Positions 6,859 to 18,904 of a DNA stretch of 64,000 bases are shown here, in pieces; within the stretch, counting starts at the first letter, position 1; every line of letters starts with the position of its first letter. Location: NCBI GenBank assembly GCA_009840595.1, contig VXNK01000051.1, forward strand, positions 1 through 64,000. Direction: 5' to 3'. Source of the DNA: Rhodospirillaceae bacterium (GTDB lineage: Bacteria; Pseudomonadota; Alphaproteobacteria; Bin65). Under the pieces are notes generated by a model. It saw nothing but the letters and a program-made list of their open reading frames with translations. It was not told where the DNA came from and searched no databases. Both the position numbers and the translations under genes were made by a program.

Positions 6859-7923
6859 TCAGCTCCGCCAGCGCAGGACCGTCTCCGTCACCGGGTTGCG
6901 GAAGTCGCGGTCCTCGGCGCGGGCGGCGGCCAGCTCCTTCTTCAGCGCCATGTACCATTTCGCCGGCGTGTCGGCGTCGGGCAGCAGCATGGCGGCGTCG
7001 GACTTCTTGCGGCCCTCGCGCTGCCGGTTCATCGCCGTGCGGTCCTGGTTCAGGAAGTTGCGCGTCACCGGGACGACCAGCGGCTTGGCCAGCGTCATCA
7101 GCGGGTGCGACCAGTACATGACGTGATGCATCGCCGTGCGGTATTCGGAAACCGGCGTCATCGCCGTCACGCCGACATAGTAGTGCCGCGCGCCCAGGGT
7201 CATGTGCTCGACGCGCACGCCGGGCAGCCGGAAGCTTATCTCCACCGTCTTCTCGCCGCGCAGCAGGCGGATGATGCGGCTGTTGGCGCTCGGCGCGTGG
7301 CGCACCATGGTGAAGCCGAGCTCCGACGGCGCGTAGCGCTTGGCCTTTTCGGTCAGCGTCTTCGACGAGCGCCACCACCAGTTGCGGTGGACGTAGGCGC
7401 CGTGGGCCGGGTCGATCAGGCCGATCACGGCGTCGTCGAAATGGCATTCCAGATCCAGGGTTTCGGCGATGCCGGGCCGGCCGCGCGCCGGGATTTCGGG
7501 CGGCGTCGGCAGGTCTTCGGGCGGAGCGTCCGCCCCGTCGCCCATATAGACCCAGATCAGGTGCTGCGCCTCGCGGCAGGGATAGGATTTGACCCCGATC
7601 CGGTCGAGCCGGACCGAATCGCGGGTGTCCTCGACCAGCGAGGGAATGTTGCGGCACACGCCGTCGGTGCCGAACTGCCAGCCGTGATAGGCGCAGGTCA
7701 CCGTCTCGCCGTCGAACCGGCCGGCCGAGAGCGGCATGGCCCGGTGCGGGCAGATATCGCGCATGGCGAAGACCGCGCCGGCCTTGTCGCGGCCGATCAG
7801 GACCGGCTCGTCCAGCAGCGTCCGGTGCACCGCCGTGCCGCGCCGGAGCCGCGTGCCCGGCATGGCGAGATACCACAGGCCGCGCGGTGCGGCCGGAACG
7901 CCGCCCGCCTGCGCCTCGGCCAT
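6859..7923 (-). CDS. Rieske non-heme iron oxygenase, large (alpha-type) subunit
   Basis: A 354-residue oxygenase with an N-terminal Rieske [2Fe-2S] site, C58-x-H60 (CPHRAMPL) and C77-x2-H80 (CAYHGWQF). A C-terminal catalytic domain carries the mononuclear iron region DPAHGAYVH. The size and single-subunit arrangement resemble vanillate O-demethylase or other ring-hydroxylating/demethylating oxygenases rather than the alpha/beta dioxygenases. It starts 30 bases after the isocitrate dehydrogenase stop on the same strand. No ferredoxin or reductase partner lies beside it, so electrons must come from elsewhere. Substrate unknown. Confidence 0.85.
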   Translation of the reverse strand: MAEAQAGGVPAAPRGLWYLAMPGTRLRRGTAVHRTLLDEPVLIGRDKAGAVFAMRDICPHRAMPLSAGRFDGETVTCAYHGWQFGTDGVCRNIPSLVEDTRDSVRLDRIGVKSYPCREAQHLIWVYMGDGADAPPEDLPTPPEIPARGRPGIAETLDLECHFDDAVIGLIDPAHGAYVHRNWWWRSSKTLTEKAKRYAPSELGFTMVRHAPSANSRIIRLLRGEKTVEISFRLPGVRVEHMTLGARHYYVGVTAMTPVSEYRTAMHHVMYWSHPLMTLAKPLVVPVTRNFLNQDRTAMNRQREGRKKSDAAMLLPDADTPAKWYMALKKELAAARAEDRDFRNPVTETVLRWRS

Positions 7924-11354: not shown

Positions 11355-11948
11355 CTACAGCGTAAGGCTCGGATTCCGGACGTTGCGGTCGCAGTCGATC
11401 AGGTTGATCTGCTTGGCGAGGATCGAATAACCGTCCGCGGCCGTTTGCAGCCGGTGGCCGGCCCAGCCGGCCCAGTGGCGCAGGTCGCCGTCGAGCAGTT
11501 CGGCGATGTGGAAATTCGAGCGCGCCATGACGATGCCGGCGTCATCGGTCGCGAACAGCTCGACGTTGGAGACCGAGCGCACGGTCCTGCTTTCGGGGCT
11601 CTGCGACCAGGCATAGCCGGTGCGCAGCCGGTAGACCCGGTCCTCGAGCTGGCGGCGGTCGTGGAAGGCGACGGTGATTTCCCGCCGCGGGTCGCCGCGT
11701 TCCGGGGTGCCGGGAACCCAATAGGCGCATTCCGGCGCGAAGAGCGCGAGCCAGTCTTCGTATCTCTTCCGGTCGAGCAGCCGCGCTTCCCGTTCCAGAA
11801 AGGCGCGGGCGGCGTCGCGCCGGGCCGGGTCGGCGACCGCCAGCTCGTCCCGGTCCCAGTCGGTGAACGCTTCGACCAGTTCCCGGTAGAAAGCGTCGCC
11901 GACATAGTACGAGCTTGTCGACGGATCGCGTTCCGCCGCCGCCCCCAT
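11355..11948 (-). CDS. Aromatic-ring-hydroxylating dioxygenase, beta subunit
   Basis: A 197-residue small subunit with the SnoaL/NTF2-like cone fold. Typical features are the ARAFLEREARLLDRKRYEDW helix, FAPECAYWVPGTP, and VYRLRTGYAWSQSPESRTVR. It has no redox cofactor and serves to assemble the alpha3beta3 hexamer. Its ATG overlaps the TGA of the alpha subunit by one base (TGATG), so the two are translationally coupled. It is the last gene of the glutamine-synthetase-like/alpha/beta operon. The ferredoxin or reductase is not encoded beside it. Confidence 0.9.
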   Translation of the reverse strand: MGAAAERDPSTSSYYVGDAFYRELVEAFTDWDRDELAVADPARRDAARAFLEREARLLDRKRYEDWLALFAPECAYWVPGTPERGDPRREITVAFHDRRQLEDRVYRLRTGYAWSQSPESRTVRSVSNVELFATDDAGIVMARSNFHIAELLDGDLRHWAGWAGHRLQTAADGYSILAKQINLIDCDRNVRNPSLTL

Positions 11949-13312
11949 CAGGAAACGTCCCGGGTCGGCGCGATGTTCGGCTCGGTCTGCATCAGCCGCC
12001 GGTAGACCCGCATATAGTCGCGCATGAAGACCTCGTCGGTCGCCGGGCCGATCGTCGTACCGTCGCCGGCCGCGCTGTAGCGTTCGGGCAGGCCCAGGCC
12101 GCGGTGCATGTAGATCCACGCGTCTTCCTCGGCGGCGAGCCCGGCCTGGATCTGCTCGAAATTGGCCAGATCGTCGACCTCGCCGAAGGTCGGGAACTGT
12201 TCCTGGGTGCGCATGCGCAGGGCGTTGACCGGGCCGAGCGCATCGCCGAGCTCGCCGTCCGGATCGACCACGGCGGTGCCGTACCAGGTCGTCGCGGTCT
12301 CGGTGACCGACAGGGGCTCGCTGACCTGGATGTGGTTACCCAGGATATGCAGGTTCGGAAACACGTTGATGTTGACCGGCTCGGACGACGCCAGGTCGAG
12401 AAAGGCGTCCGCCCGGTCGGGGAAGTCCCGGCGCAGGGCCGCCTCGTAATGCTCCATGCCGGGATGCAGCCCCTCGATCGCCCACAGGGCGCCGGGGCGC
12501 TTCGGGATCGCGTCGCGCTTGTCCTTGAAATGGTGCGCGTTCGGGAAGGAATAGAGCTTCACCGGGCCGGTGTCCGGGCTGTCCTTGTAGTAGGACATGC
12601 CCTTGCCGTCGCCCTCCTGGAAGCGGTTCTCCATCATCAGCAGCGAGCGGTGGGAAAAGACGACGTGATAGCCGTCGGCCGAGTTGTCGTAGAGCAGCTT
12701 CCAGTTGCCGTTGAACTTCAGCCGGTTGGCCTCGCGCACCTCGAGCGCGCCGCCGGGATGGCGGTCGAGCCATTCGTCGAGCGGCCGCCGCACCGGGCCG
12801 AGATAATCGATCAGCCCGGGCGCGTCGGCGTTCAGGGTGGCGAAGATCAGGCCGCGGTAGCTCTCGACCCGCGGCACCTGCATCAGGTTGAATTCGGGCC
12901 GGGAAAAATCGCAGCTGTAGCCCTCGGGCCAGGGCACGCCGGATAGCTTGCCGGTGTTGAGATAGGTCCAGCCGTGATAGGGGCACTGGAACGCCTTGGC
13001 GGACCCCCTGTCCTGCCGGCAGACGGTGGCGCCGCGATGGGTGCAGCGGTTGTAGAGCGCGCGCAGCACGCCGTTCGAATCGCGCACCACGATGAGCGGG
13101 CGGCGCCCGAGCCGGGCGCGCACGAAATCGTTGGGCTGCGGCACCTGGCTCTCGTGGGCCAGATAGACCCAGACCGCGCCGAAGATGCGCGTCATCTCCA
13201 GGTCGAAGATCGCCGGGTCGGTGTAGAGCGACCGGTGCACCCTGTCCTCGTGGACCAGGGCATCGAAGTCGAAGACCCGCTCGGGCAGGATTGGTTTCTG
13301 CTGCGTCGTCAT
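11948..13312 (-). CDS. Aromatic-ring-hydroxylating dioxygenase, alpha (catalytic) subunit
   Basis: A 454-residue catalytic subunit. The Rieske [2Fe-2S] ligands are C90-x-H92 (CTHRGAT) and C110-x2-H113 (CPYHGWTY). The mononuclear iron motif is NSADGYHVVFSHRS near residue 215, with the bridging Asp and two His. The length is that of the naphthalene/benzoate/aniline class. It should insert both atoms of O2 into an aromatic substrate or hydroxylate a side group. The glutamine-synthetase-like gene lies 36 bases upstream and the beta subunit overlaps downstream. That order recalls tdn/atd aniline dioxygenase operons, so an aromatic amine is a possible substrate (inference). Confidence 0.92.
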   Translation of the reverse strand: MTTQQKPILPERVFDFDALVHEDRVHRSLYTDPAIFDLEMTRIFGAVWVYLAHESQVPQPNDFVRARLGRRPLIVVRDSNGVLRALYNRCTHRGATVCRQDRGSAKAFQCPYHGWTYLNTGKLSGVPWPEGYSCDFSRPEFNLMQVPRVESYRGLIFATLNADAPGLIDYLGPVRRPLDEWLDRHPGGALEVREANRLKFNGNWKLLYDNSADGYHVVFSHRSLLMMENRFQEGDGKGMSYYKDSPDTGPVKLYSFPNAHHFKDKRDAIPKRPGALWAIEGLHPGMEHYEAALRRDFPDRADAFLDLASSEPVNINVFPNLHILGNHIQVSEPLSVTETATTWYGTAVVDPDGELGDALGPVNALRMRTQEQFPTFGEVDDLANFEQIQAGLAAEEDAWIYMHRGLGLPERYSAAGDGTTIGPATDEVFMRDYMRVYRRLMQTEPNIAPTRDVS

Positions 13313-13348
13313 CGGCGCCTCCCCGGCTGTCCGCTAGCCCGATCCGGG

Positions 13349-14845
13349 CTAGAACGCATCGAAATACTCGTTGACCTCCCACTCGGTGACGCCGGCGGCG
13401 GGATCGACGCCGGTTTCGGAGAGGAAGGCGTCGAAGCGGGCCATCTCCGCCCGTTTCAGAGCCAGATAATAGCCGATATAGGCTTCGCCGAAAGCGTCGC
13501 GGTAGAGCGGCGACCGTTCCAGGGCTTCGAGCGCCGCCGGCAGGCCGGTCGGCAGCATCGGGCGGTCGGCGGTATAGGGCGCGTCGTCGGCGGGCCAGGG
13601 TTCGGCTTCCCGCGCCAGTCCGTCCAGCCCGGCGGCGACCTGCGCGGCGATGAAAAGATAGGGATTGGCCGCCGGCTCGCCGACCCGGTTTTCGTAGCGC
13701 GTCGCCGGATCGCCGGCGCCGCCGAGCACCCGCACCATCGTGCCGCGATGGTCGAAGCCCCAGGTCACGCGGTCGGGGGCGAGCGAAAACGGCCGGAACC
13801 GGCGATAGCCGTTGACCGTCGGCGACCCGAACACGACGCCGTCCAGCGCATGGTCCAGCAGGCCGGCGAGGAAACTGCGGCCGAGCGGCGACAGATGATC
13901 GGCCCCGGCCTCCGGCATGAGCGCATTGGCGCCGCTGCCGTCGCACAGGGAAAGATGCAGGTGCCAGCCGCTCGGATACAGGCCGCGCCGGCCGGGCGCC
14001 GCCATGAAGCTCGCCATGTGGCCAATCCGCCGGCAAATCTGCCGGGTCGCGGTGCGGAACAGGACATAGTCGTCCGCGGCGCGCAGGGCCTCCCTCGCCT
14101 CGAAGGTGCATTCGACCTGCCCCGCGCCCCACTCGTTCTCGACCGACCGCAGCCCCAGATCGAGCGCCTGGTAGTGTCCGGCGAGCGCGCTCAGCATCGG
14201 CTGCATCAGATCGAGGTTGCTCTCGCTGTGATAGGAGAAGCCGGAATCGTGCGGCGCGGCCGGAAGCGGGCTGCCGCGTTCCCCGAGTATGCCGATATTC
14301 TCCTCGCCGAGCGTGTCGTCGAGCAGCTTGAGGAGGTACCACTCCACCTCGACGCCGACGAACGCGCTCAGGCCGCGCGCCGCCAGCGCGTCGAGCGTCC
14401 GGCGCAGCACCCGGCGGGCCGAGAAGTGAAACGGCGCGCCGTCGCGGAAATACTCGTCGCACAGGACCCATCCGACTCCCGGCGCCCAGGGCAGGATGCG
14501 GAAGGTCGCCGGGTCGGGCACCGCGACCAGGTTGGGCGAGCCGGTCATTTCCGGCAAGTCCATGCCGCCGCCCGGCGTGAAGGAGGCGAAGACGCGGCTG
14601 CCGGAAGCGTCGAGCGTCCAGAGCGCCACGTTGATGTTATGCCCGTCGGCGAGCGCCGCCTCGAACGCCGGCAGGGTCAGCGCCTTGGCGCGGACATGGC
14701 CGTGGCTGTCGGACCAGGCGAGCCGCACCAGTTGCAGCTTCTCGGCCCGCGCCCGCGCGGCGATGTCCCGGGCGCAGCGCGCCTGGTCGTCGGTCCACAA
14801 GCCGTGGCGGGCGATGAAGCCTTCCGGTTCGGGTGCATCGGTCAT
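13349..14845 (-). CDS. Glutamine-synthetase-like gamma-glutamyl ligase
   Basis: A 498-residue member of the glutamine synthetase superfamily, outside the housekeeping GlnA group. The N-terminal beta-grasp (DSHGHVRAKAL) leads into the catalytic domain with VGVEVEWYLL, NEWGAGQVECTFE, and YPSGWHLHLSLCDGSG. Later come FSLAPDRVTWGFDHR and the glutamate-site segment YENRVGEPAANPYLF. Such paralogs ligate glutamate to amines other than ammonia, including aniline (TdnQ/AtdA1), isopropylamine and polyamines. It starts the operon with the ring-hydroxylating dioxygenase, which supports an amine-activating role. The ATG at 14845 gives the family start; a longer start would run into the divergent DUF4399 promoter region. 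Confidence 0.82.
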   Translation of the reverse strand: MTDAPEPEGFIARHGLWTDDQARCARDIAARARAEKLQLVRLAWSDSHGHVRAKALTLPAFEAALADGHNINVALWTLDASGSRVFASFTPGGGMDLPEMTGSPNLVAVPDPATFRILPWAPGVGWVLCDEYFRDGAPFHFSARRVLRRTLDALAARGLSAFVGVEVEWYLLKLLDDTLGEENIGILGERGSPLPAAPHDSGFSYHSESNLDLMQPMLSALAGHYQALDLGLRSVENEWGAGQVECTFEAREALRAADDYVLFRTATRQICRRIGHMASFMAAPGRRGLYPSGWHLHLSLCDGSGANALMPEAGADHLSPLGRSFLAGLLDHALDGVVFGSPTVNGYRRFRPFSLAPDRVTWGFDHRGTMVRVLGGAGDPATRYENRVGEPAANPYLFIAAQVAAGLDGLAREAEPWPADDAPYTADRPMLPTGLPAALEALERSPLYRDAFGEAYIGYYLALKRAEMARFDAFLSETGVDPAAGVTEWEVNEYFDAF

Positions 14846-14980
14846 TGCCGGCAAGACTAGGCGATTCCGGCTCGGGCTGAATACTGTTTTCGGCGGCGGG
14901 CCGGACAGCGGAATTCTTGCGTTCGAATCGGACTTTGGATATGCAGGCCGGCCATGTGCCATCGCAAAGGGATACGGTCG

Positions 14981-16237: not shown

Positions 16238-17155
16238 TCAGCGCGCCGGGCGGGTCTTCCGCAGCGGCAGGCCTTTCGGCAGCATCCATTCGGCGAAGAC
16301 TTCCGGCCCCGGCGTCCAGAGCTGGGGCTCCCAGTCCTCGGTCAGATAGTCCTCGTCCCAGAAATATTCGGCGAGGCCGCCGCAGGGATTGTGCACATAC
16401 CAGAAATAGCACGACGAGATACGGTGCCGGCCCGGCCCGACCGCGGTTTTCCAGCCGCACAGGGCGAGGTGCTGGCCGCCGGCGAACATCTCGTGGATGT
16501 CGCGCACGGCGAAGGCCAGATGGTTGATGCCCGGCCGGCCGGTCGGCGATTGCAGCAGGAACAGGTTGTGATGGCTGTGGCGCGGCGCGCAGCGCAGGAA
16601 CACGCTGCCATTGTCGTAGGCGTCGGACAGGTGGAAACCCAGAACCTCGCGATAGAAGGCCGAACAGGCGGCGGCGTCCGGCACGTTGAGCACGATATGG
16701 CCGATCTTCAGCGGCGCGGCCCGCTCGTAGAAGCCGGCGCGGGCGTCGATCCGGTTGACATCCTGCGGCGCATTGGCCGGCGACGGCGCGACCTCGGGCA
16801 TCCGGGTTCGGGACACGACGAACTCGAGGGCGAAGCCGGCCGGGTCGACCGTCCGCACACCCGGCCCGTCCGCAAGGCAGCCGGCGGCGGCCAGCCGTTG
16901 CCGCACCGCCTCGACATCTTCGGCGGTCTCCAGGCCCCAGGTCATCAGCCGGACCGAAGGCCCCGCCTCCACCGGCGGCGGCAGCGCCGTGTCGCTCCGG
17001 CGTTTGAGGATTACGCGCGCTCCGTTCGCCGCGGCGAAAACCGCGGACGCCTTGCCGGCCGGACGCTCCTCCAAGCCGAAATCGCTCCAGAAGCGCCGCG
17101 CCTTCGGCAGGTTGGTCACGCCGTAGGTGACCGCTTCGATTCCGACAAACCTCAC
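16238..17155 (-). CDS. Two-domain VOC protein, type I extradiol dioxygenase-like
   Basis: A 305-residue vicinal-oxygen-chelate protein with two tandem VOC modules (about 1-120 and 145-290). The C-terminal module has the three metal ligands of extradiol ring-cleaving dioxygenases: His in KIGHIVLNV, His in GINHLAFAV, and Glu in GGLAEYFWDED. The N-terminal module lacks them, as in BphC/catechol 2,3-dioxygenase enzymes. The start is taken as GTG at 17155, with GGAAGGGAAG just upstream and the family N-terminus (VRFVGIEAVTYGV) following. It diverges from a dehydrogenase gene across 86 bases. A meta-cleavage role is plausible; the catecholic substrate is unknown. Confidence 0.75.
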   Translation of the reverse strand: MRFVGIEAVTYGVTNLPKARRFWSDFGLEERPAGKASAVFAAANGARVILKRRSDTALPPPVEAGPSVRLMTWGLETAEDVEAVRQRLAAAGCLADGPGVRTVDPAGFALEFVVSRTRMPEVAPSPANAPQDVNRIDARAGFYERAAPLKIGHIVLNVPDAAACSAFYREVLGFHLSDAYDNGSVFLRCAPRHSHHNLFLLQSPTGRPGINHLAFAVRDIHEMFAGGQHLALCGWKTAVGPGRHRISSCYFWYVHNPCGGLAEYFWDEDYLTEDWEPQLWTPGPEVFAEWMLPKGLPLRKTRPAR

Positions 17156-17241
17156 GCCGATCTTCCCTTCCGACGGTTTCCCGAGCGGGCGCGCCGCCCT
17201 AGAGTAACGTGCTCCGGCATACCGAACGACAGGGTTATAGC

Positions 17242-18153
17242 ATGACGGCACGCATCGGCATCATCGGTTACGGCGAGGCCGGCCGCGCCTTCGGCGCCGG
17301 GCTGGCCGGGGCCGGCGCAACGGTCGCGACCTACGATATCCTCGTCCCGACGCCCGACGGCGCCGCCATCCGGGCGAATGCGGCGGCCGACGGCGTGGCG
17401 GTCTGCACTACGGCCGGAGACGCCATCGACGGCGCGGCGATCGTCCTGTCGCTGGTCCCGGCCGACGCGGCGCGCGCCGTCGCGGCGGAAGCGGCGAGCC
17501 ATCTGCGCTCCGGGCAGCTGTTCATGGACATGAACTCGGTCTCGCCGCGCGAGAAGGAGACCGGCGCCGCGCTCGTCGAAGCCTCCGGCGCCCGCTATGT
17601 CGAAGCGACGATCATGGCGCCGGTCATCGAGAACGGCGTGGCGAGCGAGGTGCTGCTGGCCGGCCCGGCGGCCCCCGAGGCGCTGCACCTGCTCCGCCCC
17701 TTCGGCATGGTCCTCGCCGTCGTCGGCGACCGGTTCGGCGCGGCGGCGGCGGTCAAGCTGTGCCGCAGCGTCATCGTCAAGGGGATCGAGGCGATCATGG
17801 TGGAGAGCATGCTGGCCGCCCGGCAATACGGCGCGGACGCCGCCGTGCTCGCCTCCCTGCAGAAGAGCGATCCGGAAATCGACTGGGCCGCCAGGGCCGA
17901 CTATGTGTTCGAGCGGGTCCTGCGCCACGGCCGGCGGCGCGCCGCCGAGATGCGCTTCGCCGGCGAGGCGGTGTCCGACGCCGGCTATCCGCCGCGGCTG
18001 AGCATGGCAATCGCAGAATTGCAGGACGCGATGGCCGACCATGCCGCGGCCGACCGCGCCCTGTTCGCGCTCGCCGACTACAGGGAAGCCGCCGACCGGA
18101 TCGGCGCGCTGCTGGCGAAAAACGAAGGAAAGGCCCGCGCGGTCAGCCGCTGA
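17242..18153 (+). CDS. NAD(P)-dependent dehydrogenase, 6-phosphogluconate/hydroxyisobutyrate-dehydrogenase type with DUF1932
   Basis: A 303-residue oxidoreductase. The N-terminal Rossmann fold opens with IGIIGYGEAGRAFGAGLA (GxGxxG-like). The conserved substrate-side segment (FMDMNSVSPREKE) and lysine helix (AAAVKLCRSVIVKGIEAIM) follow. The helical C-terminal half matches DUF1932. Such enzymes oxidise beta-hydroxy acids or related compounds. The ATG at 17242 is the only good start for the Rossmann glycine motif. Its 3' end overlaps the convergent PqqC-like gene by 11 bases. The divergent extradiol-like VOC gene suggests a shared pathway. Confidence 0.78.
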   Translation: MTARIGIIGYGEAGRAFGAGLAGAGATVATYDILVPTPDGAAIRANAAADGVAVCTTAGDAIDGAAIVLSLVPADAARAVAAEAASHLRSGQLFMDMNSVSPREKETGAALVEASGARYVEATIMAPVIENGVASEVLLAGPAAPEALHLLRPFGMVLAVVGDRFGAAAAVKLCRSVIVKGIEAIMVESMLAARQYGADAAVLASLQKSDPEIDWAARADYVFERVLRHGRRRAAEMRFAGEAVSDAGYPPRLSMAIAELQDAMADHAAADRALFALADYREAADRIGALLAKNEGKARAVSR

Positions 18154-18904
18154 CGCCGTCGGGCAGCATGTCGGTCTCGCCGAGCACCTCCAGGCGCCAG
18201 ATATCGTTGGTCGAGGCCCAGCGCAGGTGGACCGCGGTCTCGCAGACCTCGAGCGCGCGGGCGGCCTCTTCCGGCGTCCGGATATATTTCGCGCACAGAT
18301 CGAGCTGGCGCGTGGAATGTTCCAGGTCGGCCTCGGCATGCTCGACGAAGAAGGCGATTTCCGGGTCCTCTTTCCTCAGGCCGTAATGCTTGGCGAAGGA
18401 CGGGATGGTGATCTCGTTGTTCAGCGCGACCTGCTGGCCCTCCTGGGTCGAGGCCATGGCGAGCGCGACGCCGAGCGGCTCCTCCCGGTTGACGTGGCAG
18501 TAGAACAGGGTCCGCGCCCACCAGCCGGGCGTGGGTTTCGTATTCTCGATCTCCTCGTCCGACAGGCCGGCGTGGCGGCAGAAGTCCGAGATCATCTCGA
18601 AATGGTCGTGGGGCACATGGCCGGGCTTGGGAATGGCCATCAGGCCCTCTTCCTCCGCCATGTTTTCCGCAATCATGCGCCGGATGTCCGACGGGCCGCG
18701 CCAGTACAGGAACCCGAAGGACGGCACGACATAGTTCACGAACTTCAGATGCTGAGCCATGTAGACGCCGAGCGCGCGCAACGGCAGCGAACCGTCGAGC
18801 ATGGCCTGGAAAAACGGATGTTTCTTGGTGTGCCATTTCTCGCGGATGGCGACGACCTTGTCGGCAATGCCCTCCGGGCTGACGACGACGGATCCTTCCG
18901 GCAT
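18143..18904 (-). CDS. PqqC/TenA-fold iron-containing redox-enzyme-family protein
   Basis: A 253-residue all-helical protein of the heme-oxygenase-like fold shared by PqqC, TenA and CADD-type enzymes. Conserved stretches include WHTKKHPFFQAM, an acidic ENMAEEEGL helix, HFEMISDF, and AEADLEHSTRQLD. The Glu and His positions (E in ENMAEEEG, H in DHFE, E/H in EADLEHS) could form a di-iron site as in recently described family oxidases, or may be cofactor-free as in PqqC. No pqq genes lie nearby, so PQQ synthesis is unlikely. Function open. Confidence 0.7.
   Translation of the reverse strand: MPEGSVVVSPEGIADKVVAIREKWHTKKHPFFQAMLDGSLPLRALGVYMAQHLKFVNYVVPSFGFLYWRGPSDIRRMIAENMAEEEGLMAIPKPGHVPHDHFEMISDFCRHAGLSDEEIENTKPTPGWWARTLFYCHVNREEPLGVALAMASTQEGQQVALNNEITIPSFAKHYGLRKEDPEIAFFVEHAEADLEHSTRQLDLCAKYIRTPEEAARALEVCETAVHLRWASTNDIWRLEVLGETDMLPDGVSG

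Follow-up and report, generated by a model that had tools for sequence, protein, structure and literature searches.

What does a glutamine-synthetase-like (GS-like) gene do when it is followed directly by the two subunit genes of a ring-hydroxylating dioxygenase? We addressed this question for a three-gene locus of a Rhodospirillaceae bacterium (Alphaproteobacteria; NCBI GenBank assembly GCA_009840595.1). The window, that is, the whole stretch of DNA that was analyzed, comprises 64,000 nucleotides (positions 1 to 64,000 of contig VXNK01000051.1). Joining glutamate to an amine ahead of ring oxidation is a strategy known so far from a handful of pollutant degraders. A preliminary description of the locus had likened it to the aniline clusters of such bacteria and proposed that it oxidizes an aromatic or other amine through a gamma-glutamyl conjugate, possibly as a reduced version of the aniline system. 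The three genes are:

13349..14845, minus strand: predicted GS-like gamma-glutamyl (aromatic) amine synthetase, 498 aa (Pfam Gln-synt_C, 2e-69)
11948..13312, minus strand: predicted Rieske ring-hydroxylating oxygenase alpha subunit, 454 aa (Pfam Rieske, 3e-20, and Ring_hydroxyl_A, 1e-14)
11355..11948, minus strand: predicted oxygenase beta subunit, 197 aa (Pfam Ring_hydroxyl_B, 4e-32)

The layout given in the preliminary description was exact to the base: a 36-base gap separates the GS and alpha genes, and the beta ATG and the alpha TGA overlap by one base. All three genes are under purifying selection (dN/dS about 0.01–0.22 between species of the genus). The sequence comparisons described below make it likely that the trio is a chromosomal module that oxidizes an amine, most likely an aromatic one, via its gamma-glutamyl conjugate. 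Its assignment as a gamma-glutamyl-amine dioxygenase is well supported by homology.

We compared the GS-like protein with solved structures. The best match was 8wwu (E = 1.8e-128), with the next match at 3.5e-47. The entries 8wwu, 8wwv, and 8x6z are listed as "glutamine synthetase", and the loop and the E232/E234/W235 residues described in PMC11335346 identify them, at the sequence level, as NpaA1, the 1-naphthylamine glutamylating enzyme of Pseudomonas JS3066 (PMC11335346). The protein scored well under the cut-offs of the NCBIfam models for PuuA (222 of 650 bits), GS III (206 of 470), and GS I (184 of 429). In a GS tree of 56 rows, it was placed inside the arylamine synthetase group (support 99) with the GS proteins encoded on pNB8c, pJS3066, and further plasmids of the aniline type; outside this group lay GlnA, GlnT, and PuuA, and the window's own clade had a support of 100. 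A forced clade of the protein and PuuA-type rows was rejected by an approximately unbiased (AU) test (p = 0.025; one of two tests made, and one that involves long branches). Model scores, tree, and AU test thus ruled out a PuuA, GlnT, or GlnA identity. The earlier view of the protein as a non-housekeeping GS holds, with the NpaA1/Dca/Tdn-type enzymes as its tree neighbors.

The active site points in the same direction. The flap Glu of ammonia-using GS, present in the genome's own GlnA (GFEAP), is replaced by Leu in the window protein (FSLAP), as it is in most arylamine-type rows compared; one single-Rieske-type row has Asn. Loss of this Glu is a feature of glutamyl-organic-amine synthetases (PMC11335346). 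The substrate and metal motifs ENEW, GWHLH, NGYRRF, and ENR are retained, and the window GS, unlike the genome's own GlnA, has the additional N-terminal loop ("motif 15") where the amine enters. By these sequence features, the GS-like protein falls with the aryl-amine gamma-glutamyl synthetases (GoaS; NpaA1, AtdA1, TdnQ/DcaQ).

The oxygenase subunits, judged by identity, are nearest to aniline-type oxygenases (alpha 42–51%). Alpha and beta are 44.5% and 44% identical to the subunits of the cluster of GS, glutamine amidotransferase (GAT), and dioxygenase genes on pNB8c, versus just 29–34% over full length between the window alpha and the other alpha/beta oxygenases of the genome. The nearest plasmid relatives of alpha come from Nostoc (51%, the highest outside the clade), actinobacteria (49–51%), and Shinella/Rhizobium (48%); in those that we opened or cross-listed, a GS gene of the same family adjoins alpha or sits a few kb away. 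In the alpha tree, the aniline-type family separated from the genome's other oxygenases with a support of 100, and the window's clade again formed a branch of its own (support 100). By alignment, the ligands of the Rieske cluster (CxH, CPYHGW) and those of the mononuclear iron (H216, H221, and D381) are intact. A mapping of clade-specific alpha residues onto the IadD pocket was set aside because its loop region was too uncertain. Within the genus, alpha is closer between some species than GS or beta, synonymous sites included: dS to locus L009 is 0.21 for alpha, 0.50 for GS, and 0.64 for beta, a pattern that was not seen against L025. Alpha alone may have recombined within the genus.

Is the pairing of ligase and oxygenase conserved? 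A scan of species genomes yielded 35 loci, about two dozen of which carry a GS 56–93% identical to that of the window, and whole-genome loci were added. Alpha came next after GS in 25 of 25 non-duplicate clade loci with enough downstream sequence, and alpha then beta followed GS in all 22 clade loci with room for both. The gene set is therefore not a chance neighborhood. The preliminary description had named grouping with PuuA or GlnA, together with an unconserved operon, as evidence against its proposal; what we found was an arylamine grouping and an invariant GS-alpha order. Five genomes of the genus have a close copy (86–95%) and a sixth (G006) has a 57% copy; one same-genus GS copy (G002:C50:391527-393020, 95% identical) contains a single in-frame TAG, which marks either a pseudogene or a mistake in the assembly. 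Among 385 genomes drawn from across the class, four outside the genus contained the clade. In loci from beyond the genus, the flanking genes are unrelated: polA (DNA polymerase I), argG (argininosuccinate synthase)/folD, an N-acetylmuramoyl-L-alanine amidase gene, phoD, and others. Clustering of open reading frames over the loci gave only GS, alpha, and beta as common to the clade, so that a wider conserved operon was rejected. The trio, which many uncultured bacteria carry, is therefore a module that is either portable or was put in place long ago, and that needs no particular partner beside it.

These results bear on the possibility that the substrate of the ligase is an aliphatic amine or a polyamine, with the oxygenase lying next to it by accident. 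GS-like proteins of the wider family do act on putrescine and isopropylamine (PMC11335346). However, the GS-alpha order without exception, the AU rejection of a clade with PuuA-type rows, and an oxygenase that is itself of the aniline lineage all argue otherwise. This explanation is largely refuted by synteny, and we regard it as highly improbable.

The preliminary description had noted that the amidotransferase and the reductase of the aniline clusters are missing locally, and we found neither near the trio. Amidotransferases, reductases, ferredoxins, and ferredoxin reductases of annotated clusters served as queries against the clade loci, over flanks of 2–9 kb in most loci, some loci being short. 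None of 28 clade loci had an amidotransferase or an adjoining reductase, and neither did the window neighborhood. The weak matches were a glutathione-reductase-like gene within the genus and, in L114, a 30% reductase-like match ∼4 kb from the trio. A candidate local reductase at 19–20 kb of the window was rejected because it is glutathione-reductase-like and not an oxygenase reductase. With the same queries, each of the nine aniline-type or Shinella plasmid loci showed an amidotransferase as well as a reductase or ferredoxin pair; these counts are partly so by construction, several queries having come from those loci, and the loci's own annotation agrees with them.

In the npa system, NpaA1A3A4A5 (GS, alpha, beta, and reductase) suffice and the amidotransferase NpaA2 is dispensable (PMC11335346). 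Of the four parts that are essential, the trio thus retains three. The genome search for the missing parts, which the preliminary description had proposed, recovered two FNR-type reductases and one ferredoxin reductase, all unlinked; for the amidotransferase, its best match was distant (34%), partial, and on another contig. Since these three reductase candidates face six alpha/beta oxygenases (counted as beta-subunit genes), the reductases are likely shared, with the electron donor of the trio supplied in trans. With a completeness of 98% in 168 contigs, the assembly may have missed a gene.

Which amine would the module use? On its way into NpaA1, the amine passes F75, M81, and F86 of the neighboring subunit and W235; the F75A and F86A mutations almost abolish aniline activity, M81W changes the preference, and W235A is dead (PMC11335346). 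The corresponding element of the window protein is:

14594..14632, minus strand: amine-entrance loop of the GS-like protein, residues 72–84, NVALWTLDASGSR, equal to NpaA1 positions 69–81 by alignment

Compared with the hydrophobic, aromatic tunnel of NpaA1/AtdA1 (positions 75, 81, 86, and 235), the window GS departs at 75 and 81. The aromatic residue at position 75 is aligned with L78, a Leu throughout the clade, and the hydrophobic residue at position 81 is aligned with R84, an Arg that is invariant in the clade; in the aniline-type sequences compared, this position is always Ile, Met, Val, or Phe. F86 is kept in the clade, W235 in the window GS and in most clade rows, and the E232/E234 pair of NpaA1 is kept as well. 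The Leu at 75 and the invariant Arg at 81 make aniline an unlikely native substrate.

The trio might nevertheless be a true aniline or chloroaniline dioxygenase operon that converts aniline to catechol and from which the amidotransferase and reductase genes have simply disappeared. The three proteins are all relatives of the pNB8c/JS3066 enzymes, the retained F86, W235, and E232/E234 residues would fit, and intradiol dioxygenases, a tandem pair included, are encoded elsewhere in the genome. Against this stand the GS and alpha trees, each of which keeps the clade apart from that of the aniline enzymes (support 100), the clade-wide lack of GAT and adjoining reductase, which is not the mark of a recent loss, and the invariant Arg and missing aromatic at tunnel positions where mutation of NpaA1 alters or nearly abolishes aniline activity; moreover, no mobile element was recognized and no catechol operon was found beside the trio. 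We therefore judge an aniline operon with lost genes to be distinctly unlikely. The idea of a reduced aniline system gives way to a separate monophyletic lineage in which GAT and adjoining reductase are missing throughout and the tunnel residues are altered. The kind of chemistry proposed earlier, amine oxidation through a gamma-glutamyl conjugate, survives through the homology of GS, alpha, and beta, whereas the aniline detail is unproven or unlikely.

Positive charge at the tunnel entrance suggests, weakly, a polar or carboxylated (anionic) aromatic amine, such as an aminobenzoate, as the best but unproven guess. In two metagenome-assembled genomes (MAGs; L010 and L041), the trio is followed by genes for an isochorismatase-like hydrolase and a PcaB-like lyase (359 and 356 bits against a cut-off of 356); L010 has an SDR gene there as well. 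These genes would fit a protocatechuate-type product, but many such genes occur in soil bacteria and we treat them as a lead, not as proof. A literature search for 4-aminobenzoate degradation via a gamma-glutamyl conjugate gave nothing usable. A possible GS-like gene in the 3-aminobenzoate mab cluster of Comamonas QT12 is unsupported and was not used; the paper on that cluster never mentions glutamine.

In the pathway that we favor, the GS-like ligase would link the amine to the gamma-carboxyl of glutamate at the expense of ATP, by homology to NpaA1/AtdA1. An alpha3beta3 Rieske oxygenase would then dioxygenate the conjugate at the amide-bearing carbon, as the npa work suggests, to give a catechol-type product while the nitrogen leaves with the glutamyl group. 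The electrons would be supplied by a reductase whose gene lies elsewhere and which serves other oxygenases as well. Hydrolysis of excess conjugate, the role of the amidotransferase in aniline clusters, would be dispensed with in the clade. The genome contains four intradiol-dioxygenase matches, two of them in tandem, so a catechol-type product could be cleaved.

The same chemistry could serve detoxification or biosynthesis rather than catabolism, with an amine natural product of a host or of the bacterium itself being modified, for example in a sponge-associated lifestyle. One close relative or more belongs to a MAG that is labeled as sponge-derived (Spongia_Bin9), the trio sits among housekeeping genes, and no transporter or lower-pathway genes are conserved with it. 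On the other hand, soil-type and betaproteobacterial MAGs have members of the clade too, the hydrolase, lyase, and SDR genes of L010/L041 look catabolic, and no biosynthetic gene cluster was recognized nearby. We consider a non-catabolic role rather unlikely, if less so than the aniline operon.

Several points weigh against the module that we propose, a gamma-glutamyl-amine dioxygenase for aromatic amines. Its substrate class is drawn from homology at 41–47% identity, and the tunnel argument is a residue mapping by alignment, not a structure; with F86 and mostly W235 kept, aniline may, by residues alone, still be a substrate. For the essential electron donor, the genome offers three candidates. 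Finally, some actinobacterial relatives of the GS adjoin amidases with no Rieske gene seen nearby, so the GS family is not tied to oxygenases.

How is the trio embedded in the window? A DUF4399-like gene lies divergently 108 bases upstream and a cytochrome c'-like gene lies convergently downstream, and the trio is therefore probably one closed transcription unit. The upstream spacer is likely its promoter region:

14846..14953, no strand assigned: intergenic region of 108 bases that separates the divergent GS and DUF4399-like genes, a probable promoter region as suggested by the layout

A scan of this region gave no match to a sigma-70-like promoter, and a scan for terminators gave no informative signal either. 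The window neighbors (an extradiol-dioxygenase-like VOC protein, an HIBADH-like protein, a TenA-like protein, and an F5/8-type protein) are shared within the genus only. The VOC protein (16238-17251, same strand, ∼1.4 kb upstream of GS) has two domains and resembles extradiol dioxygenases; it matched the HpaD model at 74 bits, under the cut-off, its His, His, and Glu metal-ligand positions are apparently present by eye, and it is kept alongside the trio inside the genus only. The TenA/PqqC/haem-oxygenase-like protein (18143-18904), also kept within the genus, weakly matched the CADD family (54 of 200 bits). A further Rieske oxygenase gene, VanA-like, lies at 6859-7923, ∼3.4 kb from the end of the trio, with no adjoining reductase.

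The same genome has a second pairing of this kind. At C28:1120-3930 (G000; L066, L103), a phthalate-type single-subunit Rieske gene is directly followed by a GS gene whose product is 46–48% identical to the window GS and carries an invariant Lys at the tunnel. Such single-Rieske pairs are common in Alphaproteobacteria and Burkholderiaceae, and several in Burkholderiaceae come with a ferredoxin, a reductase, and a PuuD-like hydrolase. Across the single-Rieske GS clade, Lys is invariant at NpaA1 position 75 and Thr at position 81. A single origin of all alpha/beta-paired GS proteins was neither shown nor rejected (AU p = 0.35).

Taken further, the trio could represent a widespread chromosomal lineage of gamma-glutamyl-amine dioxygenases for a natural carboxylated or polar aromatic amine, with the pollutant-degrading aniline operons as one branch of an older and general strategy, in which glutamate masks the amine and thereby lets a Rieske oxygenase attack the ring; we offer this as a tentative possibility that falls short of being probable. 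Should the trio treat a natural amine likewise, this chemistry would be older and commoner than the aniline story implies, the origin of the plasmid aniline operons could be traced, and new ligases with altered amine tunnels would become available. A GS family paired with two Rieske classes, twice in one genome, also provides a simple genome-mining rule for such pathways.

How does the trio compare with known systems? PuuA, the gamma-glutamylputrescine synthetase of E. coli, is likewise a GS-fold ligase that makes gamma-glutamyl amides, but it is only 26% identical to the window GS and sits on a separate branch. The single-subunit (phthalate-type) pairs of Burkholderia, Novosphingobium, Methylobacterium, and contig C28 likewise combine a Rieske oxygenase with an adjacent GS from the same wider family; they differ in their oxygenase class, which has no beta subunit, in Lys 75 and Thr 81 of their GS, and, in some, in the accompanying ferredoxin, reductase, and PuuD-like hydrolase. 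The actinobacterial alpha-beta-GAT-GS-ferredoxin-reductase clusters (Dietzia, Rhodococcus gordoniae, and Corynebacterium occultum plasmids, near catA) have an alpha that is 49–51% identical, yet they bring their own GAT, ferredoxin, and FAD reductase, with a catechol 1,2-dioxygenase nearby. Plasmid pn1 of Nostoc sp. UHCC 0926 (L121, 6152-9802) also keeps beta, alpha, and GS together (alpha 51%), and neither GAT nor reductase turned up in its 15-kb stretch; it is set apart by its beta-alpha-GS order, its hydrophobic tunnel loop, and its place on a cyanobacterial plasmid. The Nostoc trio is without annotation in the collection. The aniline and 1-naphthylamine systems (Tdn, Atd, Dca, and NpaA1-A5; pNB8c, pJS3066) have the same GS-like arylamine synthetase, alpha, and beta in one operon, with identities to the window trio of 41–47% for GS, 42–45% for alpha, and 35–44% for beta. 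Unlike them, the window trio has no amidotransferase, adjoining reductase, or catechol operon, and no plasmid was recognized in the loci seen; its clade differs in its tunnel residues and stands on its own, with a support of 100, in both the GS and the alpha trees.

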